This document shows positions 2,225 to 28,435 of a stretch of 34,311 bases of DNA, in pieces. The DNA comes from Candidatus Aenigmatarchaeota archaeon (lineage in GTDB: Archaea > Aenigmatarchaeota > Aenigmatarchaeia > GW2011-AR5 > JAHLMP01): assembly GCA_018920315.1 (NCBI GenBank), contig JAHLMP010000006.1, forward strand, positions 1,884 to 36,194, given 5' to 3'. How positions within the stretch are numbered: the stretch's first letter is position 1; each line of letters starts with the position of its first letter. The notes below the pieces were generated by a model. It did not search any database. It was not told where the DNA came from and saw nothing but the letters and a program-made list of their open reading frames with translations. The translations under genes were made by a program, and so were the position numbers.

Positions 2225-3970
2225 ATGGGCTACTTAGAAAATCTTGAAGAGATATCTAATAAAAAAGAAAAGCACGAGTTCTATCTTCCTATACCAAAAG
2301 GTTATGAAAGAGGGAGAACAAAATACATTATAGTTACAGGAAGCGTTATGAGTGGCGTAGGAAAAGGAACATTAACATCTTGCTTAGGAACCTTGCTTCG
2401 TTGCCATGGATTAAAAATCTCTATGATAAAATTTGATGGATACTTAAATTATGACGCAGGTACTTTGAACCCATTTCGCCATGGCGAAGTTTTTGTTTTA
2501 GACGATGGAACAGAGTGCGATTTAGACTTAGGCTCTTATGAAAGGTTTACTAATCAAAATTACACAAAGGATAATTATCTAACTGCTGGAAAGATATTTA
2601 AGAGAATAATAGAGAAAGAGAGAAAAGGAGAATTTCTTGGAAGAGATGTGCAATTTATTCCACATGTTACAGGAGAGATAAAAGGTTTTTTAAGAGAGCT
2701 TGCAGTAAAAACTCGAGCAGACGTTATTCTAGTAGAGGTTGGCGGAACTGTAGGCGATATAGAAAATTCTTATTTTATAGAGGCGATGCGCGAATTAAGA
2801 TACGAAGAAGGAGAGCATAATGTTTGCTTCATAAATGTTACATATATCATAGAGCCAAAATCTTTGCAAGAGCAAAAGAGTAAAGCAGCCCAACTTGGAA
2901 TAAGAAAGCTTCTTGAGCTTGGAGTACAACCAGATATAATATTTTGCAGATGTGAAAGTAAGCTTAATGAAAGCATAAGAGAGAAAATAAGTATTTATTC
3001 GAACGTTCCTTTAAAAAATGTTTTCGAGCTAGGAGATGTTGAATCAGTTTATGAACTTCCTTTAATTCTTAAAGATAATAATGTTGACAAAGCAATTTTT
3101 GAGGTTCTTAAAATTTCTGAAAGAAAAAACGAAGAAAGCGATATAAACTTTTCAATATGGAGCTCTTTTGTTGATAAAATAAAGAAAAGCAATAAGAAAA
3201 TAAATATTGCTATTGTAGGAAAATATACTAAGGTACAAGACGCCTATATAAGCATAATAAAAGCATTGGAGCATTCAGCAGCCTACTACTTAGCGAAACC
3301 AGAAATAAAATGGATAGAAGCAAGCTTGCTCGAAGATGAAAATAATAATGTAAAAGAGGATTTAGTTAAAGAAAGCTTGAAAGATGTTCATGGAATTATT
3401 GTTCCAGGAGGTTTTGGAAAGCGAGGTATAGAGGCTAAGATATCTTGCATAAAATATGCAAGAGAAAATAATATTCCATTTCTTGGTCTATGCTTAGGGT
3501 TTCAGCTAGCAATCGTAGAATTTGCAAGAAATGTTTGCAATCTAAAAGATGCTAATTCAAGAGAGTTTGATTTGAATACAAAACATCCTGTAGTAGATCT
3601 CTTGCCGGAACAAAAAAATATAGAAGAAATCGGTGGCACTATGCGTTTAGGAGGAAAAGATGTTGAAATAGTTCCAAATACGCTTGCTCACAAACTTTAC
3701 GGAAAGTTATTGGTTAGAGAACGTTTTAGACATAGATTTGAATGCAATCCAAACTATGTAGAAATCTTAGAAAGGCATGGAATGGTATTCTCAGGAAAAG
3801 CACCAAATAGCAATATAATGCAAATCCTAGAGCTTCCATTTCATAGATTTTTCTTAGCAACACAGTTTCATGCTGAGTTTACCTCAAAGCCTTTGGCTCC
3901 AAGCCCAATATTTAAAGGATTTATCAAGAGTTGTTTAGAATTTGCGGGTTTATCTGAGAATAGTATCTGA
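2225..3970 (+). CDS. pyrG: CTP synthase
   Basis: TKYIIVTGSVMSGVGKGTLTSCLGTLLRCHG, KFDGYLNYDAGTLNPFRHGEVFVLDDGTECDLDLGSYERF, and a GATase domain with VPGGFGKRGIEAKISCIKYARENNIPFLGLCLGFQ. Confidence 0.98.
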   Translation: MGYLENLEEISNKKEKHEFYLPIPKGYERGRTKYIIVTGSVMSGVGKGTLTSCLGTLLRCHGLKISMIKFDGYLNYDAGTLNPFRHGEVFVLDDGTECDLDLGSYERFTNQNYTKDNYLTAGKIFKRIIEKERKGEFLGRDVQFIPHVTGEIKGFLRELAVKTRADVILVEVGGTVGDIENSYFIEAMRELRYEEGEHNVCFINVTYIIEPKSLQEQKSKAAQLGIRKLLELGVQPDIIFCRCESKLNESIREKISIYSNVPLKNVFELGDVESVYELPLILKDNNVDKAIFEVLKISERKNEESDINFSIWSSFVDKIKKSNKKINIAIVGKYTKVQDAYISIIKALEHSAAYYLAKPEIKWIEASLLEDENNNVKEDLVKESLKDVHGIIVPGGFGKRGIEAKISCIKYARENNIPFLGLCLGFQLAIVEFARNVCNLKDANSREFDLNTKHPVVDLLPEQKNIEEIGGTMRLGGKDVEIVPNTLAHKLYGKLLVRERFRHRFECNPNYVEILERHGMVFSGKAPNSNIMQILELPFHRFFLATQFHAEFTSKPLAPSPIFKGFIKSCLEFAGLSENSI

Positions 3971-4149
3971 GAATAGGTATCTGAGGATATATGGATTTCC
4001 GGTTATATGGATTTCCAAGAGAAATAATATTGAAGTTAAGATTATTTAATTTGTATTAATTAATTTGAAAATAATTGAATTTTGAAAAATTATTTGTTTA
4101 GATTGCGTTTAAAATAATTTTTAGTATTGTAAATAATTGGCGAAGAGAT

Positions 4150-5406
4150 ATGACAGAGATTTCAAGGGTAAAAGGTACGAAGGATTATATACTTGAAGAA
4201 ATGGAAAAGATAAATTATATCATTGAAAAGGTTAAAGAAACTTTTGAGAGGTTTGGTTTTAGACAGATGGATACACCAGCACTAGAAAGTTGGGATATTC
4301 TATCAAAAAAGGGCGTTGGGGGTAGCGATATTTTAGAAGAAACATTTAGATTTAAGGATAAATCTAATAATGAAATTGGATTGCGTTACGATCTTACTGT
4401 ACCTCTTGCTAGAGTTATTGCTTTAAATAAAAATCTTCCATTACCATTTAAGCGATATCAGATAGCAAAGGTTTGGCGTTATGGCGATGTTTCAAAAGGA
4501 AGATTAAGAGAGTTTTATCAAGCAGATATCGATATTGTTGGTTCTTCAAGCTTGCTTGCAGATGCAGAAGTTTTAGCATGTGCTTCAGAAGCTTTGAAAC
4601 GCTTGCATATAGATTTCTTGATAAGGATAAATAGTAGAAGAATTTTGTTTTCTATGATGAAAAGCGCAAGGATAGAAAAGGAAAAGATGTTAGAAGTTAT
4701 AAGAGCTATAGATAAATTAGAAAAGATAGGAGAAGATAGCGTAAAAGATGAGTTAAAAAAGATAAAGATTGAGGAAAAAAGCATAGATAAGATATTTGAT
4801 TTTATTAAAATGGATTTTGATTCTATTGCTCTAGAAGGAAGAGAAGAGATAGAAAATCTAATAGATTATCTAGATGGCTTTGGAATAAAGAATTTTAAAA
4901 TAGATCTTAGCTTAGCTAGAGGATTAGATTATTACACAAGCGTAATCTTTGAGATAATTGCAAAAAAAGAAGGAAAGCTTGGAAGCATAGCTGGAGGAGG
5001 AAGATATGATAATCTTATAGAACTATTTGCTGGAAAGAAGATTCCAGCTACTGGCATAAGCTTGGGTATAGATAGAATTGCTGAGATTATAGATCGTTTC
5101 CCAAAGAAAAGTTTGATTTACGTAGCATTAACTAGTGATAAGGTTTTGAAAAAAGGCTTTGAGATAATAAAAATGCTAAGAGATAATGGAATTAACGTTG
5201 ACTTTGATTTGATGAAAAGAAAATTGGCAAAGCAATTGGAGTATGCTAATTCATTGAAAATAGAGTTTGTTATAATCGTTGGAGAGGAAGATTTGAAAAA
5301 TAATGAAGTAACATTAAGAAACATGGTTACAGGCGAGGAAAAAAAGATTAAGATTGAAAATCTCATCGAAGAATTGAAGCAAATTTTATCAAATAAACTC
5401 ATTTGA
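4150..5406 (+). CDS. hisS: histidyl-tRNA synthetase
   Basis: 418 aa; RVKGTKDYILEEM, RYDLTVPLARVIALN, LPLPFKRYQIAKVWRYGDVSKGRLREFYQADIDIVG, ARGLDYYTSVIFEI. Confidence 0.97.
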   Translation: MTEISRVKGTKDYILEEMEKINYIIEKVKETFERFGFRQMDTPALESWDILSKKGVGGSDILEETFRFKDKSNNEIGLRYDLTVPLARVIALNKNLPLPFKRYQIAKVWRYGDVSKGRLREFYQADIDIVGSSSLLADAEVLACASEALKRLHIDFLIRINSRRILFSMMKSARIEKEKMLEVIRAIDKLEKIGEDSVKDELKKIKIEEKSIDKIFDFIKMDFDSIALEGREEIENLIDYLDGFGIKNFKIDLSLARGLDYYTSVIFEIIAKKEGKLGSIAGGGRYDNLIELFAGKKIPATGISLGIDRIAEIIDRFPKKSLIYVALTSDKVLKKGFEIIKMLRDNGINVDFDLMKRKLAKQLEYANSLKIEFVIIVGEEDLKNNEVTLRNMVTGEEKKIKIENLIEELKQILSNKLI

Positions 5407-11505: not shown

Positions 11506-14500
11506 ATGATAAAGGAAAAAAATAAGAGTTTAAATCTCAAGGGCGTTTCACCAATAATTGCAGTAATTCTCTTAGTAATGATTGTAATAGGAATGGGATT
11601 GACAGCTTACTTATTCTTTAGTAGAACTCAAGAAACTTTGCAAAAAGGTACAGAAGAACAGGCAGGAAAAGCTTTTGAAGCCATGTACTCAAAAATAAAG
11701 ATAGAATCTGTTACCAAAGAAAAAATATATATAAGAAATGCTGGATCTTTTGAAATAAATTCAACTTCTCTTACATTATATGTGAATAATGAAACATACT
11801 CCTTTACTATAGGTACAGAGATATTAGAGCCAAATCGGGTTTATGCTTTGCAGCTTTCTCAACCCTTGGGAGAGCAAGATTATCTTATAAAAGTTACAGC
11901 AGGCGCTGGAATAGAAGATTCAAGATATGTTAATCTTGCGATAACCACTACAACTACAACAACATCAATTCCAATAACTATAACAACTACAACAATACCT
12001 CCAGGAGTGACAACCACAACTACAACCCTACCTCCGGGAGTCACTACAACAACATTACCAAATACCCCACCTGTAGTAACGCCTGTAAGCTTTAGCGGAA
12101 GTACAAATCAAGGCTCTGTTGTAACTTTCATGACAAATGCAACTGATAACGAGCAATCAAGCTCTTCGCTTACTGTAAGACTTTGGGTTGGTGTTTGTAC
12201 TAGTGGGGATTGCTCATCTTCAAGTAATTATCAATGGATTCTTGATGGTGTTCAGATGAGTTATTATGCTGGCAATGAATTCCGTTATCAATGGACAATA
12301 AATCAGCCAGCTGGAAGCATTATAGGAGCTACTTGCCAAGCAATAGATAATCAAGGAGCAACATCTAATTGGGGAGATAGGTTTCCAATCTTTACTGTAG
12401 GCGTGCAACCGACAACTACTACATTAACAACCACAACTTCCACTACATCAACCACAACTACTACAACAATTTCCTGGTACTTTTCAAACCTTCCTAAGAG
12501 AAGAGCAATAAACGTTACAAACTCTGGTTCAGCGCTAACAAATTATCAGCTTGCATTGAATATAAGCTATTCTTCAAGCATGACCTATAACTTTGCAGAT
12601 CTAAGGTTCACTTACTTTAATGGCTCTGCTGAGCAACAAATTCCTTATTGGCTAGAAACATATCAAGCAAACTCCTGGGCAAAGGTTTGGGTAAAGGTTC
12701 CAAGCATTCCATCTGGAACTTCAAGGCTTTATGTTTATTATGGAAATAGCTCATTGCTTTCAGAATCAAACTTCGATCAAGTATTTACAAAGAATTTCGA
12801 AGATTCTGATCTTGTTGGCCTATGGCATTTTGATGAAGGCTCTGGAACAAGCGTTAGCGATGCATCTGGAAATGGAAATAATGGAAATATAATTAATCAA
12901 AATCTTGGTACTTATTGGGTTGCAAGCGATGGTGGCCAATGGGATGGAAGAAGCGATGTAAAGTTCTCTACAGGAGCATCTATAAACTTTACAAACGCTT
13001 TCTCTTTTGTAGAGGTGCCACATTCATCTTCGCTAAATCTTCAAAATGCAATAACAATAGAAGCTTGGGTAAACCCAAGAGCAATAGGAGGAAGCTTTAG
13101 CTATAGAAGGCCTATAACAATAACAAATACAGCAGGAGCTTTAACAGATTACCAAGTTCTCGTTACACTTGATACAGCAAGTTTAATCTCTCAAGGAAAG
13201 ATGCGTAGTGATTGCGGGGATATAAGATTTACTGATAGCGATGGAGCTACAAAATTAAGTTATTGGATTGAAAGTGGATGCAATTCAGCAAATACAAGAA
13301 TTTGGATAAAGATTCCTTCAATTCCTAGAACATCTACAAAACTTATTTATATGTATTATGGTAATTCTTCAGTAACATCAGAAAGTAATGGAGCAGCTGT
13401 TTTTGATTTTTTCGATGATTTTAATACCTTAGATACATCTTCTCGATGGTATCCTGTCGCAGGCTCTAACTATCAAGTAAGTAATGGAATTTTGAGAATA
13501 AATCAAGGTGCTATAGGTCTAATTAGCGCATTACCTTTTAATCTGAATAGTGGCTATATGGTAGAGTCAAGAATTCAATATAATACAAACTCAGAATCTG
13601 ATTATAGCGGAGTCTTAGAGACAGCAAGCTATAGATTTATAGCAGGAGGAAATGCTAATAGCGATGCTACAGTACTTTATATGGTAGATTATCCTTCTGG
13701 AAACGTAAATGTAAAAGGATGGGTCGCAAACGGAGCTTCTACAGGTTATAATATAGCAAATGCTGTCTCGCTATTTGATATGAGCCTAAACACATGGTAT
13801 ATTATAGGAATAGAGACAACATCATCAACTGTCGGATTTTGGAGGGATTATTCTAGGATTGCTAACTACTCTCTTTCCTGGAGTAAAAACATGAATTACA
13901 TTTCTTTAGGTTACTATGCTGGCCTATCAAATAATATTAAAGATACATCCTACGATTGGGTAAGAATAAGAAAGTACAGAAGCCCAGAACCAACTACAAG
14001 CGTTGGATCTGAACAAAGTTCACAATCACAAACAAATTGGTTATATAGAAGACCAATAACAATAAACAATCCTGGAAGCGCAAAAACAAATTATCAAGTT
14101 TTGGTAACTATAGATACAGCAAGTTTAATTTCTCAAGGAAAGATGAGAAGTGATTGCGGGGATATAAGATTTACTGATAGCGATGGAGTAACATGGCTAG
14201 AGTATTTCTTGGAAGGAGGTTGTAATACAAATGCAACACAGGTTTGGATTGTTGTCCCATCAATTCCAAGCGGAAGTAAGAAAATATATATGTATTATGG
14301 AAATCCTGACGCAGTTTCAGCAAGTTTGATGTGGAACGGCCAGTTTATTGTTCTCTCAGACGTGCCTTGTGATACACCTTGGACAAGATTTTCTCAATTA
14401 GACAACCGCTTCCCAAGAGGCTCTTCTTCTTACGGAGGAACAGGAGGTAGCGAAACGCATACCCATACAACCTCTGGACCAAGTGCTACAAAATGTGTGG

Positions 14501-15576
14501 ATTCGTCTCCTTGCACTACTAATGTAGCCTCCGATACTCACACTCACACCGCTACTGCAAACCATCTTCCGCCATATCTTAATATGATTTTCTGTAGTAG
14601 CAATAATTTATATTTGAGAAGATTTTCTATAGCAATGTTTAGTACAAGCTCGCTTCCTTCTGGTTGGACAAGATTTTCTCAATTAGACAACCGCTTCCCA
14701 AGAGGCTCTTCTTCTTACGGAGGAACAGGAGGTAGCGAAACGCATACCCATACAACCTCTGGACCAAGTGCCACAAAATGTGTGTATTCGCCTTGCGTTA
14801 CTAATGTAGCCTCCGATACTCACACTCATACTGTTAGTACAGAAAACCATCTTCCGCCATATATTGATACAATTTTTGCTCAGGTTAATAGCGATGGCCC
14901 AGCACCATCAGGAACAATAGTAATGGCAACTTCATTACCTCCTTTAGGATGGACAAGAGTAAGTAGTTTTGACAACCGCTTCCCTCGTGGCTCTTCTTCT
15001 TACGGAGGAACAGGAGGTAGCGAAACGCATACCCATACTCTATCTGGACCAAGTGCTACAAAATGTGTGGATTCGTCTCCTTGCACTACTAATGTAGCCT
15101 CCGATACTCACACTCACACCGCTACTGCAAACCATCTTCCGCCATATTTGGATGTGCTTTTCATTCAGAAGAATTCGCAAGACGTTACGACGAGCGTTGG
15201 AGCTGAGGAGATGAGATTTATGATAAATAAGGGAACTAACTATGGCTTAGGAGCAAATACTACTCATGCATTCGGTATAATAAACAATAATAGGATTTCT
15301 GCTCCAATCCCGCAAGGTTGGGTTTTCATAGCATTAACTTACGATGGCTCATATCAAAGATTATATGTTAATGGCTTAGAGTCAGCTTCAACACCAAAAA
15401 CAGAAACCATAGCAACTAGCAATAGCCCGCTAATAATATTCAATCCAGGAATATTAGATGAAGTTAGAATTTATAATAGAGCTTTATCTCAAAACGAGAT
15501 TATAGCCCATTACGAAAGAAGAAAGTATTCAGCAACACCACCAAGCTATGTAATAGGAAGTGAGGAAACAAGATAA
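11506..15576 (+). CDS. giant surface adhesin-like protein with type IV pilin-like N-terminus, Thr linkers, DUF2341, split LamG and three tail-collar-like repeats
   Basis: N-terminus NLKGVSPIIAVILLVMIVIGMGLTAYLFFSRTQ (archaeal class III signal/Pilin_N-like); TTTTTTTSIPITITTTTIPP linkers; three DUF2341-like segments (...YVYYGNSS, ...MYYGNSS, ...MYYGNPD); LamG halves VGLWHFDEGSGTSVSDASGNGNNGNI...NAITIEAWVNP and WVFIALTYDGSYQRLYVNG...GILDEVRIYNRALSQNEIIAHY; three DNRFPRGSSSYGGTGGSETHTHT repeats. Confidence 0.88.
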   Translation: MIKEKNKSLNLKGVSPIIAVILLVMIVIGMGLTAYLFFSRTQETLQKGTEEQAGKAFEAMYSKIKIESVTKEKIYIRNAGSFEINSTSLTLYVNNETYSFTIGTEILEPNRVYALQLSQPLGEQDYLIKVTAGAGIEDSRYVNLAITTTTTTTSIPITITTTTIPPGVTTTTTTLPPGVTTTTLPNTPPVVTPVSFSGSTNQGSVVTFMTNATDNEQSSSSLTVRLWVGVCTSGDCSSSSNYQWILDGVQMSYYAGNEFRYQWTINQPAGSIIGATCQAIDNQGATSNWGDRFPIFTVGVQPTTTTLTTTTSTTSTTTTTTISWYFSNLPKRRAINVTNSGSALTNYQLALNISYSSSMTYNFADLRFTYFNGSAEQQIPYWLETYQANSWAKVWVKVPSIPSGTSRLYVYYGNSSLLSESNFDQVFTKNFEDSDLVGLWHFDEGSGTSVSDASGNGNNGNIINQNLGTYWVASDGGQWDGRSDVKFSTGASINFTNAFSFVEVPHSSSLNLQNAITIEAWVNPRAIGGSFSYRRPITITNTAGALTDYQVLVTLDTASLISQGKMRSDCGDIRFTDSDGATKLSYWIESGCNSANTRIWIKIPSIPRTSTKLIYMYYGNSSVTSESNGAAVFDFFDDFNTLDTSSRWYPVAGSNYQVSNGILRINQGAIGLISALPFNLNSGYMVESRIQYNTNSESDYSGVLETASYRFIAGGNANSDATVLYMVDYPSGNVNVKGWVANGASTGYNIANAVSLFDMSLNTWYIIGIETTSSTVGFWRDYSRIANYSLSWSKNMNYISLGYYAGLSNNIKDTSYDWVRIRKYRSPEPTTSVGSEQSSQSQTNWLYRRPITINNPGSAKTNYQVLVTIDTASLISQGKMRSDCGDIRFTDSDGVTWLEYFLEGGCNTNATQVWIVVPSIPSGSKKIYMYYGNPDAVSASLMWNGQFIVLSDVPCDTPWTRFSQLDNRFPRGSSSYGGTGGSETHTHTTSGPSATKCVDSSPCTTNVASDTHTHTATANHLPPYLNMIFCSSNNLYLRRFSIAMFSTSSLPSGWTRFSQLDNRFPRGSSSYGGTGGSETHTHTTSGPSATKCVYSPCVTNVASDTHTHTVSTENHLPPYIDTIFAQVNSDGPAPSGTIVMATSLPPLGWTRVSSFDNRFPRGSSSYGGTGGSETHTHTLSGPSATKCVDSSPCTTNVASDTHTHTATANHLPPYLDVLFIQKNSQDVTTSVGAEEMRFMINKGTNYGLGANTTHAFGIINNNRISAPIPQGWVFIALTYDGSYQRLYVNGLESASTPKTETIATSNSPLIIFNPGILDEVRIYNRALSQNEIIAHYERRKYSATPPSYVIGSEETR
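11953..13236 (+). repeat. paralogous near-identical block, copy 1 (copy 2 at 16098..17390)
   Basis: Direct reading: the sequences match almost base for base outside a divergent patch at ~12190-12280. The stretch ~12383-13200 vs ~16537-17354 looks identical, and spurious ORFs inside it are identical (12820..13023 vs 16974..17177; 12915..13100 vs 17069..17254). Confidence 0.9.
14380..15156 (+). repeat. three tandem tail-collar-like repeats, 285-bp period
   Basis: Repeat starts (tggacaag...) at 14380, 14665 and 14950, exactly 285 bp (95 codons) apart. Each has FPRGSSSYGGTGGSETHTHT...SDTHTHT...NHLPPY. Confidence 0.9.
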
Positions 15577-15665: not shown

Positions 15666-18600
15666 ATGCACAGAAAAAATTTTTTTAAGGGAATATCTCC
15701 AATAATTGCCGTAGTTCTTTTAATTATGATTGTAATAGGAATGGGTATAACAACATATTACTACTTATCTAAAACTCAACAAACAATCCAAACAGGAACA
15801 ACAGAGCAAACAGAAGAAGCTTACAAGCTCACTTATACAAAAATAATTTTTGAATCATTAACACCAGAGAAAATTTACATAAGATTACACGCTCCATATG
15901 AAATAAATAGTAGTCTAATAAGAGTTTATGTTGATGAAGAGCTTTATAATTTTACTATAGATGAAGAGATTTTGAGGCCAAATGAAGTTTATTCTATAAA
16001 ACTTTCTCCGTCCATTCCTCCAGGAGAACATAAAGTAAAGATTACTATAGGGGTTGGCGTAGAAGAAGAAAGAAGAATAAAAGTTCCAAGACCTGTAACT
16101 ACAACAACATCAATTCCAATAACTATAACAACTACAACAATACCTCCAGGAGTGACAACCACAACTACAACCCTACCTTCGGGAGTCACTACAACAACAT
16201 TACCAAATACCCCGCCTGTAGTAACGCCTGTAAGCTTTAGCGGAAGTACAACTCAAGGCTCTGTTGTAACTTTCATGACAAATGCAACTGATAACGAGCA
16301 ATCAAGCTCTTCGCTTAATGTAAGACTTTGGGTTGGAAGATGTAATTACAACTCTACGGCAAATTGCACAACCTCTAGTGCTTACACATGGATTCTTAAT
16401 AACGTTAGCATGACATATTATGCTGGCAATGAATTTCGTTATCAATGGACAATAAATCAGCCAGCTGGAAGCATTATAGGAGCTACTTGCCAAGCAATAG
16501 ATAATCAAGGAGCAACATCTAATTGGGGAGATAAGTTTCCAATCTTTACTGTAGGCGTGCAACCGACAACTACTACATTAACAACCACAACTTCCACTAC
16601 ATCAACCACAACTACTACAACAATTTCCTGGTACTTTTCAAACCTTCCTAAGAGAAGAGCAATAAACGTTACAAACTCTGGTTCAGCGCTAACAAATTAT
16701 CAGCTTGCATTGAATATAAGCTATTCTTCAAGCATGACCTATAACTTTGCAGATCTAAGGTTCACTTACTTTAATGGCTCTGCTGAGCAACAAATTCCTT
16801 ATTGGCTAGAAACATATCAAGCAAACTCCTGGGCAAAGGTTTGGGTAAAGGTTCCAAGCATTCCATCTGGAACTTCAAGGCTTTATGTTTATTATGGAAA
16901 TAGCTCATTGCTTTCAGAATCAAACTTCGATCAAGTATTTACAAAGAATTTCGAAGATTCTGATCTTGTTGGCCTATGGCATTTTGATGAAGGCTCTGGA
17001 ACAAGCGTTAGCGATGCATCTGGAAATGGAAATAATGGAAATATAATTAATCAAAATCTTGGTACTTATTGGGTTGCAAGCGATGGTGGCCAATGGGATG
17101 GAAGAAGCGATGTAAAGTTCTCTACAGGAGCATCTATAAACTTTACAAACGCTTTCTCTTTTGTAGAGGTGCCACATTCATCTTCGCTAAATCTTCAAAA
17201 TGCAATAACAATAGAAGCTTGGGTAAACCCAAGAGCAATAGGAGGAAGCTTTAGCTATAGAAGGCCTATAACAATAACAAATACAGCAGGAGCTTTAACA
17301 GATTACCAAGTTCTCGTTACACTTGATACAGCAAGTTTAATCTCTCAAGGAAAGATGAGAAGTGATTGCGGGGATATAAGATTTACTGATCCTAGCGTAA
17401 ACTCACCTCTAAACTATTGGATAGAAACAAACAATGCAATTTCCCCGATTTTAATAATCCAAGGTGATGATGATTTCAATACTGGAACAAGAGACGCTAA
17501 TTGTGGAGCAAATCCAACATTTAAGTATTATTACTGTACTCATCCTTGCGAACCTCTAAATTGGTTTACTACTAGTTTTGATGATTCTAGTTGGCCAAGT
17601 GGAGTAACACCATTCGGAGCGCAAAGTGTATATACATCTGCTTGCACTAATGTATTAACGTCTGCTCCTGATGATCTTTTCATTAGGAAATGGTTCACAA
17701 TAAGTGGCGGAGCTCCTATTTCAGGAAGATTGTATCTTTCTCACGACGATGGTATAAGATGCTATATAAATGGAAATATAGTTGTAGATGTTTTGGGAAC
17801 AGGTGGAGTAGCTTCATATTGGAATAGAATAGTAGAGATCCCTGGCAGTTATCTAGTAAAGGGTAATAATCTTCTTGCATGTTGGGTAGCAAATGGAGGA
17901 GAAAATAGCGGAGCTGGAGGAGGTTATCTTGATATAAGATTAGAAGTTACAGTATCTACTTGTGATTCTTCCAACACAAGAATTTGGGTTCGCGTACCGT
18001 CAATTCCTGTTGGAAGCAAAACTATCTATATGTATTATGGAAATCCAAGTGCAACTTCGATGAGTGATGGCAAGAATACATTTTATATTTTTGAAGATTG
18101 GGAAACTGGAAGCATAGATACAAATTATTGGAGCATGAGAGGTTCTGTCTCTCCTGCTTGGAAAACATATTGGGAGAATAAATATCAAGGCTCATATTCT
18201 GCTGGAAATAGTAAAATAAACGATGGACAATATGTAGAATTATATAAGATTGTAAACTTTCCAATGAGATGGAGAATAGATTATTATTGGTCTGTAAGCT
18301 CAGAAGCAAATAAAGATTTCCTAAGATTTTGGATGGATGGTTACGAGTATGCGATAATTTCAGGTTCTGTTGGTTGGACTTTACGCTCCTTTACAGATAT
18401 TTCTTCAGGAAGTCATACACTAGTTTGGAGATATGATAAAGATGCTTCTGGAAGTGCAGGAAGTGATACCGGATGGGTTGATTATATAATTGCTCGTGGA
18501 TATGCTAATCCAGAACCTAGTTTAACATTAGGAGAAGAAACTCCTGCACTAATGATAGCAAAAGGAAATGCTTATGGCTTAGGAGCAAATACTACAGATG

Positions 18601-18920
18601 CATTCAGCTTTATTAATGGAGTTAGAATCTCTACTTCACTATCTTCTGGTTGGAATCATATTGTGATGACAGCAGAGTATATAGCAGGAGTTATGCAGCA
18701 AAAGCTTTATGTAAATTCAGTTCACTTGCAAACCCAAACTGTTTCAGGAACAATAAACACTAATACAAATCCTTTAATGATTTTTAATCCTGGAATATTA
18801 GATGAAGTTAGAATTTATAATAGAGCTTTATCAGAAGGGGAGATTAGAGCTCATTATTATAGAAAGAAATACGCTTCCGTAGAGCCAAGTTATGTAATAG
18901 GAAGTGAGGAAACGAAATAG
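15666..18920 (+). CDS. giant surface adhesin-like protein, paralog of 11506..15576
   Basis: N-terminus FFKGISPIIAVVLLIMIVIGMGITTYYYLSKTQ; same linkers, DUF2341 and split LamG; galactose-binding-like jelly-roll segment (RLYLSHDDGIRCYINGNIVVDV...YLVKGNNLLACWVANGG). Confidence 0.88.
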   Translation: MHRKNFFKGISPIIAVVLLIMIVIGMGITTYYYLSKTQQTIQTGTTEQTEEAYKLTYTKIIFESLTPEKIYIRLHAPYEINSSLIRVYVDEELYNFTIDEEILRPNEVYSIKLSPSIPPGEHKVKITIGVGVEEERRIKVPRPVTTTTSIPITITTTTIPPGVTTTTTTLPSGVTTTTLPNTPPVVTPVSFSGSTTQGSVVTFMTNATDNEQSSSSLNVRLWVGRCNYNSTANCTTSSAYTWILNNVSMTYYAGNEFRYQWTINQPAGSIIGATCQAIDNQGATSNWGDKFPIFTVGVQPTTTTLTTTTSTTSTTTTTTISWYFSNLPKRRAINVTNSGSALTNYQLALNISYSSSMTYNFADLRFTYFNGSAEQQIPYWLETYQANSWAKVWVKVPSIPSGTSRLYVYYGNSSLLSESNFDQVFTKNFEDSDLVGLWHFDEGSGTSVSDASGNGNNGNIINQNLGTYWVASDGGQWDGRSDVKFSTGASINFTNAFSFVEVPHSSSLNLQNAITIEAWVNPRAIGGSFSYRRPITITNTAGALTDYQVLVTLDTASLISQGKMRSDCGDIRFTDPSVNSPLNYWIETNNAISPILIIQGDDDFNTGTRDANCGANPTFKYYYCTHPCEPLNWFTTSFDDSSWPSGVTPFGAQSVYTSACTNVLTSAPDDLFIRKWFTISGGAPISGRLYLSHDDGIRCYINGNIVVDVLGTGGVASYWNRIVEIPGSYLVKGNNLLACWVANGGENSGAGGGYLDIRLEVTVSTCDSSNTRIWVRVPSIPVGSKTIYMYYGNPSATSMSDGKNTFYIFEDWETGSIDTNYWSMRGSVSPAWKTYWENKYQGSYSAGNSKINDGQYVELYKIVNFPMRWRIDYYWSVSSEANKDFLRFWMDGYEYAIISGSVGWTLRSFTDISSGSHTLVWRYDKDASGSAGSDTGWVDYIIARGYANPEPSLTLGEETPALMIAKGNAYGLGANTTDAFSFINGVRISTSLSSGWNHIVMTAEYIAGVMQQKLYVNSVHLQTQTVSGTINTNTNPLMIFNPGILDEVRIYNRALSEGEIRAHYYRKKYASVEPSYVIGSEETK
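16098..17390 (+). repeat. paralogous near-identical block, copy 2
   Basis: See copy 1; offset 4145, becoming 4154 after a 9-bp length difference in the Ig-like segment. Confidence 0.9.
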
Positions 18921-23771: not shown

Positions 23772-25568
23772 ATGAGAATAAAAATATTGCTTACATTCAT
23801 TGCATTATTTTTACTCTCTTCTCTATCTTTTGGTGGAATAGTTCCTACGGGCTCTTTAAATCTGCCTTCATGTTCTTTTTCTGACTCTTCTGGTATTTGG
23901 GTAAAGCCAAAAGATTGTGATTGGAGCTCTAGAGCACTTTTAGGCTCTGGAAAAAAGGCAGAATGCAGGCCATGGTGGTCTGCTTTTCAGCCTCATACAA
24001 CATGGACTAGTAGTTTATATACTGGAAGCGTAACAACATCAGCTCCAGCAGGCATAGGAGAGGCAACAAGCTTTTGTAAAATAGAGCCTGTAAGTTTAGA
24101 TTACTTGCCAGCATGCCCATTTTCTGGAAATCCTGGAGATGTTTATGTAAAGCCAAGGTTTAATAGTGGTTTATGGGAATGGAAATGGAGCGATGGAAGA
24201 TGTAAAATAGGAGAAGAATGCTCTGTGATAAAAAGTTTTAACTTGGCTCAAGTGCTTCTCATGCTTGGGCTAATAACACCAGACCAATTAGCTATTGGAA
24301 CAGTAGAGATAGAGGTTGGAAAGCTTATAAAATCTCTTACAGGGATAGATCTTCCAATAGAAGGAAAAATAAAAATAGATTTAAAAGTTCATTTAACTAT
24401 TGGGCCAGAACTTTATACGCATCAAGGTACAGATACTGCATGGTGCGGAACAAAAATACCACCGATATTTACAGGCACTCTTCCATGTGATGTTTGCGTA
24501 ATTAGAGACCCTTCTATATCATCTTGTAAAGATAGTGACAATGGAAAAAATCCAAATATAAAAGGAAGCGTGACAATAGGATCTACAACTTATGAAGATT
24601 ATTGTGTTGGTTACGATAAAGTTATGGAATATTATTGTGATAAAGATGCTGGAAGATTAGAGCTTTTTGATTGCCCTCAAGGTTGCTCTAATGGTGCTTG
24701 CATAGGAGGAGTAACAACTATACCTCAAGCTACTTGCTCAGGAAGATGTGGAAGATTTTATTCAGGATTGCCATGTCAATGTGATGAAGATTGTAGAAGA
24801 AGAGGAGATTGTTGTTCAGATGTTTGTAGAGCATGTCCAAATCTACCTTTCTGTCAAGTTACAACAATTCCACCCGGGCCAACAACAATTCCAACTACGA
24901 TAGTTACCACAATTCCAACAACATTACCTCCAGGACCGACAACAATTCCTACAACGATAGTTACAACAATTCCAACTACGATAGTATCAACAACTACAAC
25001 AACCATATCAATCCCAGCAAGTTGTGCGGGAAGATGCGGAAATTACAACCCTCAAGCTCCTTGCCAATGCGATAATGTTTGCCATTTGTATAGAGGAAGC
25101 GATGGTTGTTGCCAAGATATTTGCAGAGCATGCCCAACGCATCCAAGTTGCTTGGTAACAACAATTCCACAACCAACTACTATACCAACAACAATACCAA
25201 CTACATTGCCTCCGGGACCAACAACAATACCAACAACAATTCCACAACCTTCTGGTCAATTCATTGCAAAACTATTTACTTGCACTCAGATTGTAAATGG
25301 TTACAGATGTTATATAAATTATGACAATCAACTTGGAGAAAATGCAAACTTGATCTTCATATTTCTTGACTCAAAAGGAAAAGTAGTTTCAATATCTTTA
25401 TCCACAGCACAAAAAGGAGAAGGTACTGTAAGCGGTTTGCTATTCTGCGATTTAGTAGGTAAGGGTATTTACAGGGTTTATTGGAAAGCTTATAGAGAAA
25501 GCGATTTATTGCTAGCAAATCCGGTAGCGTGGGCAAAAAGTTATGAAATGCAAACAATTAATTGTTGA
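23772..25568 (+). CDS. secreted Cys-rich protein with two somatomedin-B-like domains and TTIP linkers
   Basis: Signal peptide MRIKILLTFIALFLLSSLSFGG; DSD...DYCVGYDKVMEYYCDK...CSNGACI module; CSGRCGRFYSGLPCQCDEDCRRRGDCCSDVC and CAGRCGNYNPQAPCQCDNVCHLYRGSDGCCQDIC. Confidence 0.82.
   Translation: MRIKILLTFIALFLLSSLSFGGIVPTGSLNLPSCSFSDSSGIWVKPKDCDWSSRALLGSGKKAECRPWWSAFQPHTTWTSSLYTGSVTTSAPAGIGEATSFCKIEPVSLDYLPACPFSGNPGDVYVKPRFNSGLWEWKWSDGRCKIGEECSVIKSFNLAQVLLMLGLITPDQLAIGTVEIEVGKLIKSLTGIDLPIEGKIKIDLKVHLTIGPELYTHQGTDTAWCGTKIPPIFTGTLPCDVCVIRDPSISSCKDSDNGKNPNIKGSVTIGSTTYEDYCVGYDKVMEYYCDKDAGRLELFDCPQGCSNGACIGGVTTIPQATCSGRCGRFYSGLPCQCDEDCRRRGDCCSDVCRACPNLPFCQVTTIPPGPTTIPTTIVTTIPTTLPPGPTTIPTTIVTTIPTTIVSTTTTTISIPASCAGRCGNYNPQAPCQCDNVCHLYRGSDGCCQDICRACPTHPSCLVTTIPQPTTIPTTIPTTLPPGPTTIPTTIPQPSGQFIAKLFTCTQIVNGYRCYINYDNQLGENANLIFIFLDSKGKVVSISLSTAQKGEGTVSGLLFCDLVGKGIYRVYWKAYRESDLLLANPVAWAKSYEMQTINC
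24735..24854 (+). other. somatomedin-B-like domain 1
   Basis: C-x3-C-x8-C-x-C-x3-C-x5-CC-x3-C; contains GRCG...CQCDEDC...DCCSD. Confidence 0.65.
25023..25151 (+). other. somatomedin-B-like domain 2
   Basis: CAGRCGNYNPQAPCQCDNVCHLYRGSDGCCQDICRACPTHPSC. Confidence 0.6.
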
Positions 25569-25633: not shown

Positions 25634-28435
25634 ATGAAGAAAAAATTATTTTTATGTATTTTTTTAATATTTGTTTTAGCTCAAAATTTAGGATATTCTC
25701 AATGCACAGATTCAGATGGTGGTTACAGAATAGACATTTATGGATGTGTAAATGTGGGTGGAAATCAATATTGTGATAGATGTGCGAGTCAAAATACATT
25801 ATATGAATACTATTGTACTAACTCTTACCCTTATTATAATTATGGAGAAGCTTCGTGTCCTTCTGGACAGGTGTGTAGTAATGGCGCTTGCGTAGCTATA
25901 TCTCAAACTTCAACAACAACTTCAACAATTTCGGCATGTCCTTACACAAGGTGCGAAAGTGTTAATCCAATAGGATGTAGATGTGGTAATCTCATCACAG
26001 AAGGTAGTTTAAGATGGTGTTGCGTAGGAACGCAATCAAATATTACATCATCAACTCAAGATGAATGCGTAAATAGGTGTAACTTTCAATCTCAACCTTG
26101 TCCTTACACAAAGTGCCAAGCAGAGAACCCGGTAGGATGTTACTGTGGTGGCAATGCACAAACCACAAGTTATTCTAGATGGTGTTGTGTAATGGGAAGT
26201 TTATCTTATATAGTAAGTAGCAAGGATAGTTGTCTCATACATTGTGGAACAACAACCACCTCAACCTCTACAATTCCATCACAATGTAACATAACTATAA
26301 ATCGTGTAGACGTTACACCTCAACCAGCAAGCACTCAAGTTACATTTGTCGCTGTAGGTAATAATATAGAGCAGGTAAGAGTAAGAATTTATGATTCAAC
26401 AGGAGCAGAAATATTTACAGGAAATTGGATCAATGGTAATTCATTTACATGGAATCTTAGAGATAATAATGGAATAGATGTTAGAAATGGACTCTATTAC
26501 TATTTAATGTATGCAAGAGGTTGTGGAAGAGAAATAGAGGCTGGGAGAGGTACCTTTAATGTTGAGAGAGGGGCTATTACAACAACTACAACCACAACTA
26601 CTACAACAACCGCTCCATCTCAGATGAGCTGTGCTGGAAGATGTGGAACTTACGATCCTCAAGCTCCTTGTCAATGTGATTTGCAATGTCGTATAAATAA
26701 TGATTGTTGTTCAGATGTTTGTAGAGCATGTCCAAATCTACCTTTCTGTCAAGTTACAACAATTCCAACTACGATAGTTACCACAATTCCAACAACATTA
26801 CCTCCAGGACCGACAACAATTCCTACAACAATAGTAACTACAATTCCAACCACAACTACAACAACCATATCAATCCCAGCAAGTTGTGCGGGAAGATGCG
26901 GAAATTACAACCCTCAAGCTCCTTGCCAATGCGATAATGTTTGCCATTTGTATAGAGGAAGCGATGGTTGTTGCCAAGATATTTGCAGAGCATGCCCAAC
27001 GCATCCAAGTTGCTTAGTAACAACAATTCCACAACCAACTACTATACCAACAACATTACCGCAAGTATATATATCATGTCCTGCATGTAGAGTAGGTAAT
27101 TGTACATGCTTAATTAGTGGATGTAATTCAGGATATGTAGAGATATACTTATCTCAAGATTGTGGTAAAAATATAACCTCCACCTATAACTTTACCGGAA
27201 ATTCTATAACATTAGCTCCTGAAAGAGAAGGAATAATTTATCTCAAGGTTATTTGTGATACTGGTCAATCTTCTGTATGCACACCAATTACTGTATCTTT
27301 ACCACCCATTACAACCACTACAACAACTATTCCAGAAGTCAAAGTAACTTGTGAAAAAAGTGTAATTTTGATAGGAGAAAAAATAAATTGCTCTATTCAG
27401 AATTGTGTTCAAGGAACTTGGTTTGCATCTAATAAACAAGGAAAGCCATTAGAGTCGCCAATCCTTTTACCAATACCACCATTTTCTATAGAAATAGGAC
27501 CGATAATTAGCGAAGGTATAATATCTGTTGTAGGTGTTTGTAGAGAACCATCCGTAACTTCAAGCTTTGATTTAAAGGTTGAAAAAGGAGTAGAAATAAA
27601 TTGCTCCTCATGCTTTGTTGAGAGTAGCTGTAGCTGTGAGATTAAGAATTGCACATATGGATGGCTTTATTTGACCAATTCAAAAGAGAATCCTTTAAAT
27701 GATGATATAGTAAGGGTAATTTCTACATCTCCCTATTCTTTAGTTTTCAAACCATATCAAGCAGGCGAGGTTTTGCTAACTCTAGAATGCTACTCTCCTT
27801 ACAAGCTAACAAGAAGTCAAAGAATTGAGGTAAAGAATGTATGCTCCGGAGCTGTAACTTTGAATATTTCACCAAGTGTTGTGAGCACAAGTTCTCTTAC
27901 AAGAGCTTACATATCTGGCTTGCAATACTGCGAAGGATATAATGTAACAATAAGAAAAGATTCTTGTAGTGGTGAGCTAGCCTGCACTGCAAAAGCGAAT
28001 GAGAATTGTCAATTTTCTGCTCCTCAACAAGAAGGCAATTATACTTATTATGCTTGCATCGATAAGAACAACGATAATGATTATGATGATCCAGGAGAGC
28101 AAACATTTGCAAAGATTGAAGTAAAGAAGATTGAAGAAAGATTCAAGTTCATTAACATCTCTTGTACACCAACGAAATGTATGTACAATATAGAAAATAC
28201 AATAAAAGAGCCTGGAATAGTATTGATAAGATTAGTTAGCATTCCAGAAGGAAGGATACACTATGCTGCCAATGATGACATATCTCCAGGATTTTCTGGA
28301 AGAAGAGAAGTACCGCTGTTAAAGATAAGAGATTGTACTTTAGGCGCGCAACTTAAAGTTGTTGCTATTGCATTTAAGCAGAGCGATGTAGAGAATGAAT
28401 TAGATAGAATTGTAAAAGTAGCATTTACTTGCTAA
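25634..28435 (+). CDS. large secreted Cys-rich modular protein with two somatomedin-B-like domains
   Basis: Signal peptide [29 protein letters not shown]...YEYYC...CSNGACV; two CPYT[KR]C repeats; FlgD-Ig-like segment ([47 protein letters not shown]); two SMB-like domains; C-terminal Cys-rich beta repeats. Confidence 0.85.
   Translation: [933 protein letters not shown]
26630..26749 (+). other. somatomedin-B-like domain 3
   Basis: [40 protein letters not shown]. Confidence 0.65.
26885..27013 (+). other. somatomedin-B-like domain 4
   Basis: Same protein sequence as domain 2 (25023..25151) and almost identical DNA. Confidence 0.6.

Follow-up and report, generated by a model that had tools for sequence, protein, structure and literature searches.

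Tandem pilin-like surface proteins of an Aenigmatarchaeota genome with a LamG domain interrupted by inserted cargo, and the same hairpin in related genomes

Two tandem genes for pilin-like multidomain proteins

The window, i.e., the whole stretch of 34,311 nucleotides analyzed here, belongs to a genome of 0.71 Mb (nine contigs, completeness of ca. 86%) and carries two genes in tandem, P0001 and P0002, neighbored by housekeeping genes such as those for an ATP-dependent DNA ligase and an RNA 3'-terminal phosphate cyclase (Table 1). These neighbors are consistent with an archaeal genome, presumably one of the DPANN type. The domain order is common to both proteins: a pilin-like stretch, Thr-rich linkers, DUF2341, and LamG. 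Their N termini (KGVSPIIAVILLVMI in P0001 and KGISPIIAVVLLIMI in P0002) are pilin-like, and KGVSPIIAVILLVMIVIG was judged by eye to be a candidate class III signal peptide or pilin helix. Residues 10 to 112 of P0001 matched a flagellin in a PDB search (8fk7; E value, 7e-4), and the Pfam family Pilin_N gave an E value of 0.07, under its family cut-off. DUF2341 (PF10102) was recovered above cut-off in both proteins, with 207.5 bits in three stretches of P0001 and 140.3 bits in P0002.

Table 1. Features of P0001 and P0002 (window positions)
Feature	Position	Strand	Evidence or remark
P0001, pilin-like multidomain surface protein, 1356 aa	11506..15576	+	Open frame
823-bp block identical to 16535-17357, spans LamG breakpoint	12381..13203	+	
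Outer DUF2341, immediately 5' of LamG	12472..12807	+	PF10102; local HMM, residues 328-431
LamG N-half, residues 435-529, C-terminal end ITIEAWVNPRAIGG	12808..13092	+	72.8 bits, profile 1-79/207
Inserted cargo, 706 aa (residues 530-1235), 2118 bp	13093..15210	+	Between LamG halves; absent from intact templates L014, L015
Inserted DUF2341 no. 1, holds patch LISQGKMRSDCGDIRFTD	13093..13401	+	Local HMM, residues 530 to ~633, 178 bits; PF10102
"FFDDF" segment, residues 633-838, ends PEPTTSVGSEQ, presumed jelly roll	13402..14034	+	Homologous segment in L032, 115 bits
Inserted DUF2341 no. 2	14035..14301	+	Local HMM, residues 844 to ~951, 171.5 bits
Three 285-bp (95-aa) collar-like repeats, GGSETHTHT...NHLPPY	14380..15162	+	PHROG tail protein, E 2e-4
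LamG C-half, MRFMINKG...ILDEVRIYNRAL...SYVIGSEE	15211..15573	+	66.8 bits, profile 99-207/207; PF13385 E 3e-14
P0002, tandem paralog, 1084 aa, same split LamG, other cargo	15666..18920	+	
P0002 LamG N-half, DNA identical to P0001	16962..17246	+	Inside 823-bp exact repeat
P0002 inserted DUF2341, first part	17247..17429	+	PF10102 profile 1-21/84
Second-level insert, 177-aa galactose-binding-like domain, order A-B	17430..17960	+	Splits PF10102 between positions 21 and 25
P0002 inserted DUF2341, second part	17961..18080	+	PF10102 profile 25-64/84, E 4e-13
P0002 LamG C-half	18549..18917	+	PF13385 E 1e-10; 56 bits on LamG HMM

A LamG domain interrupted in P0001

The LamG (Laminin_G_3) of P0001 is broken after residue 529 and resumes at residue 1236. 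A first-pass annotation had already proposed that the LamG of the 1356-aa protein was split by an insert of ca. 2.1 kb, from ca. 13093 to ca. 15211, and this was borne out by a HMM of 207 positions built from 79 intact LamG domains. Scored separately, both halves (residues 435 to 529 and 1231 to 1356) were recognized as complementary pieces that tile the profile without duplicating any part of it, and shuffled halves gave no match to the same HMM. With PF13385, the N-half was below the cut-off (E value, 0.014; profile positions 5 to 30 of 151) and tiled with the C-half (positions 51 to 150 of 151). The Omnitrophota proteins L014 and L015 have the DUF2341-LamG unit uninterrupted, with a tail of the same type. 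From the profile tiling, the two halves appear to belong to one discontinuous LamG, and we infer that they pack together as one jelly roll. AlphaFold models of P0001 residues 323 to 1356 and P0002 residues 321 to 1084 (alignments of 13 and 11 rows) were of low confidence (mean pLDDT of 47 and 40), so it is from sequence that we take LamG to be closed across the insert. In a Foldseek search with the low-confidence P0001 model, the top ConA-like folds matched over only ca. 110 columns (botulinum receptor-binding domain, AbnA, SAP, and PAPP-A), and PilC of S. sanguinis (7oa7) was also returned. We take these ConA-like matches of the model as fold resemblance only and claim no relation to toxins.

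Regarding the content of the insert, two DUF2341 units and three collar-like repeats were recovered as first described, but the "concanavalin-like" segment stayed unproved, the FFDDF segment having no match in the Pfam search. The repeats, which are followed by TTSVGAEE, matched neither Pfam Collar nor phage records, and the PHROG tail match was weak; a phage origin of the repeats found no support in phage records. A site-specific insertion element was also discarded: the junction regions had no informative repeats and the flanks no target duplication obvious by eye.

An identical block shared with the paralog

The break in P0002 falls at the same codon; that both proteins break at one point had been noted at first. 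However, its insert is not wholly different, as the annotation had it, about the first 47 aa being shared. The 823-bp block runs from the end of the linker through the outer DUF2341 and the LamG N-half into the insert, of which it takes in approximately 37 residues, and terminates within the DUF2341 patch LISQGKMRSDCGDIRFTD. Identity between the two genes remains high for some 10 residues past the block, to ...GDIRFTD, and then collapses, the contents differing beyond. The pilin parts, with ca. 55 to 75% DNA identity, and the LamG C-halves, with 58% amino acid identity, have diverged. Because the 823 bp are identical across it, the common breakpoint is not independent evidence, and independent breakage in P0001 and P0002 is rejected. 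This identity reflects recent recombination or gene conversion with an edge in the DUF2341 patch, and given that the paralogs were recently homogenized, interchangeable cargo argued from this pair alone is a weak case. The patch of both genes is 90 to 93% identical at the DNA level, over 55 to 58 bp, to that of a gene in contig C4, which suggests a route for cargo exchange.

Identical sequences in adjoining genes are the type of repeat that confuses short-read assembly, which could have falsely homogenized P0001 and P0002, or the repeats could have joined unrelated gene pieces into an artifact of metagenome assembly. We consider such an artifact very improbable, since the frames are open throughout 4071 and 3255 bp, the genome was assembled in nine contigs, and assemblies independent of this one (L019 and L059, for example) show the same nested architecture.

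Nesting within nesting and circular permutation

The reading of the 177-aa insert of P0002 as galactose-binding-like is by motif resemblance only, Pfam giving nothing significant. A third member of the family, L032 (1233 aa), is encoded in contig C4. It appears to have an outer DUF2341 in two halves, matched by the local HMM with 29.9 and 12.5 bits (the second half being weak) and separated by ca. 480 residues. Between them lies a DUF2341-ConA unit, and here, too, the inner DUF2341 is broken in that loop by the galactose-binding-like domain, which has the order B-A versus A-B in P0002. By BLASTP, residues 13 to 98 of the P0002 insert matched 87 to 170 of the C4 insert (62%, 2e-40), and residues 104 to 179 matched 9 to 83 (57%, 3e-30); against the doubled C4 insert, a single collinear match of 167 aa was obtained (54%, 204 bits). 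The two inserts are circular permutations of each other in one host loop, and, as judged from the sequence, nesting goes three levels deep. The two orders in the same loop provide a natural test of whether it is the spacing of its two termini that limits an insert.

The same hairpin in other genomes

We surveyed related genomes with a dynamic programming scan in which a single long jump could be placed anywhere along the profile, in a set with 122 intact LamG domains. Among loci picked partly by similarity to the LamG C-half, we found ca. 16 split LamG domains in 12 genomes, broken in the same hairpin (profile ca. 75 to 98 of 207), which lies after the strand "ITIEAWVNP" and before the strand "IxKGxxYGL." Because the half-alignments over-extend into the inserts, several of the breaks were placed by eye with an intact template as the reference. 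Exact insertion points vary by several residues, and in G117 and G109 the break comes after the next strand. The hairpin is the main site and not the only one, since one LamG (G117:C158) carries a propeller (Fungal_lectin match) in a different loop and L066 had a weak alternative break position in the scan.

Table 2. Cargo found in the LamG hairpin of the surveyed genomes
Genome	Cargo
G054 and Methanobacteriota MAG (L059, L019)	DUF2341-ConA
G072	DUF2341 + ~400 aa
G130	Gly-rich, 379 aa
G136	Collagen/fibrinogen-type domain (COLFI)
G153	Four repeats, propeller-like motif
G091	GBD-like, 173 aa
G109	Two different inserts
G056	RCC1 repeats, 710 aa, E 3e-51
G015	Another LamG, 71 bits
G117, three paralogs	405 aa; Ig-like + Hint (PT-HINT); F5/8C

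About a dozen unrelated types of cargo were found at this hairpin across the 12 genomes (Table 2), most of them without similarity to each other; for the LamG-in-LamG case L193, the gain in score was small (12 bits). Inserts differ even among paralogs of a single genome. The three G117 paralogs have a common LamG scaffold, with C-halves 72 to 79% identical, and their cargoes have no BLAST match to one another. The idea of a scaffold with interchangeable cargo, suggested in the first-pass annotation together with a comparison of relatives at the breakpoint, thus found its support in other genomes. As its content varies so widely from one relative to the next, the loop looks like a natural display socket.

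A different explanation would be that two LamG remnants, truncated by recombination, flank the DUF2341 units by chance, in a protein that consists of incomplete modules strung together. The region does recombine actively, as indicated by the 823-bp exact repeat and by an 807-bp duplication, 98% identical, in the C4 gene, and the P0001 N-half by itself is under the Pfam cut-off. However, the halves are complementary, with no part of the profile duplicated, and the arrangement recurs in 12 genomes with the halves conserved in order. Away from contig edges, no strong C-half was unpaired, the N-half being located upstream in the same ORF, and the split LamGs of G054 and the Methanobacteriota MAG keep the core residues of the C-half. 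Remnants are therefore improbable, although less so than an assembly artifact.

One insertion or several

Small alignment sets were used because in large mixed alignments MAFFT placed the post-loop strands into the insert. P0001, P0002, L019, and L059 grouped together (support of 89), all with DUF2341-led cargo. This grouping would fit an insertion of DUF2341-ConA into LamG that took place once, long ago, and was passed on both vertically and horizontally, later changes being confined to the cargo, in which case the loop would be no general socket; by the AU test, too, one clade uniting all the split LamGs was not rejected (P = 0.31). On the other hand, the split label requires 10 changes by parsimony on a LamG tree of 114 rows, at least three of them forced by well-supported branches, most cargoes are dissimilar, and the insertion points are off by several residues (G117 and G109). 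A single insertion may hold for the P0001/P0002 clade without accounting for the other split LamGs, and as a general explanation we regard it as unlikely, if a good deal less so than remnants. The AU value is compatible both with recurrent insertion and with a single old insertion after which cargo was exchanged and some inserts were lost. The safest statement is that there was at least one old DUF2341-led nest common to different phyla. Cargo turnover at the loop is clear, and the loop has probably been used independently several times.

A probable pilus-associated display scaffold

Our preferred reading, to which we give a probability of roughly 80%, is that P0001 and P0002 belong to the modular surface proteins associated with pili and are probably adhesins, with a LamG jelly roll as the outer scaffold for whole domains inserted in a hairpin. 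The chain would exit LamG at the hairpin, build the cargo domains, and return to complete the same LamG, and because it leaves and comes back, the cargo would be held at two points. LamG would act as a stiff platform, with the cargo clamped at both ends and projecting from one hairpin. Cargo may be exchanged by homologous recombination via conserved patches such as the DUF2341 one. The proteins may be carried on a filament resembling a type IV pilus, from which they would bind surfaces or other cells. In the same genome there are T2SSE/FlaI-type ATPases, with T2SSE matches over cut-off, although not all of them need be pilus ATPases; no pilus assembly genes were recognized beside P0001 and P0002.

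Filament-borne adhesion to cells or surfaces seems the most likely role, favored by the pilin-like N terminus, the T2SSE-type ATPases, the proposal of DUF2341 proteins as tip adhesins, and the existence of modular lectin pilins. According to Makarova et al. 2016 (PMC4858521), DUF2341 proteins are found in archaeal type IV pilus (T4P) loci and were proposed to be PilY-like tip adhesins. They resemble P0001 and P0002 in having DUF2341 in large surface proteins, to which ours add a pilin-like N terminus, and differ from them in their adjoining pilus assembly genes; the passages on them in that paper make no mention of a nested LamG/DUF2341 arrangement. A screen for transformation defects in M. 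maripaludis recovered transposon insertions in a DUF2341 protein (PMC10133366). Among modular type IV pilins such as PilC and PilB of Streptococcus sanguinis (PMC9934059, PMC8179133), PilC has a ConA-like lectin module (PMC9934059), and P0001 and P0002 likewise have a pilin-like N terminus followed by a ConA-like, presumably adhesive module. However, the modules of PilC are in series, whereas in P0001 and P0002 further domains are inserted inside the lectin-like domain. LamG/concanavalin proteins on the surface of DPANN archaea such as Undinarchaeota have also been suggested to serve in cell adhesion (PMC7414124); P0001 and P0002 differ from them by their split and nested architecture. Our literature search on insertion in LamG loops or split or nested LamG architecture found no paper within the library covered.

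In domain insertion in general, too, a loop of a parent domain is broken by complete domains, either one or several. Such insertion is usually regarded as a rare accident. What differs here is that about a dozen inserts unrelated to each other have entered one loop of one family, that nesting reaches up to three levels, and that one insert is also found circularly permuted in the same host loop. In our judgment, it is an even bet that DPANN-type archaea have used one LamG hairpin again and again as a general plug-in site, with cargo swapped via conserved patches on a pilus-linked scaffold. Domains with close termini would fit such a site (propellers, jelly rolls, Hint, fibrinogen-like domains, or another LamG), and because only the distance between the termini would matter, inserts would be free to be circularly permuted. 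Annotation by individual domains splits such LamGs and overlooks them. The hairpin may offer a natural display scaffold usable in protein engineering. The small-genome archaea with split LamGs probably live attached to other cells, and cargo exchange would be a testable route for surface variation in host-dependent archaea.

Domain order and nesting in the surface proteins

The same galactose-binding-like domain (assigned by motif in the P0002 insert) lies in the identical DUF2341 loop of two genes of this genome, i.e., P0002, a pilin-like surface protein gene in the window (17430-17960), and the C4 gene (L032). Its two parts are arranged A-B in the former and B-A in the latter, and this is a circular permutation. 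The C4 gene contains an internal duplication with nearly identical copies, a further sign of active recombination within this surface-protein family.

Among the related genomes, a pilin-like protein (L236, G117:C158) has a fungal-lectin-like propeller in its LamG, inserted after LYVDG, i.e., in a loop other than the main LamG hairpin, and in another locus (L162) the cargo inside LamG includes a Hint (intein-like) domain. Reversed nesting, with a DUF2341 domain enclosing a whole LamG, was seen in L071 (G051:C7) and L081 (G137:C71).

The window also codes for a pair of secreted, Cys-rich proteins that carry Somatomedin B domains and have Thr/Pro-rich linkers in common; to our knowledge, such proteins are uncommon in archaea.

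Coordinates of inserts, duplication copies and Somatomedin B proteins
Feature	Location	Strand	Details
L032 locus (C4 gene)	G000:C4:100500-107500	minus	has the galactose-binding-like domain in its DUF2341 loop
L032 duplication copies	2122-2928 and 3640-4446	L032 minus	807 bp, 98% identity
L162 Hint-containing cargo region	G117:C193, ORF residues 1269-1621		PT-HINT, E 5e-11
Secreted Cys-rich protein 1	window 23772-25568		Somatomedin B, E 2e-7
Secreted Cys-rich protein 2	window 25634-28435		Somatomedin B, E 3e-4, slightly under cut-off
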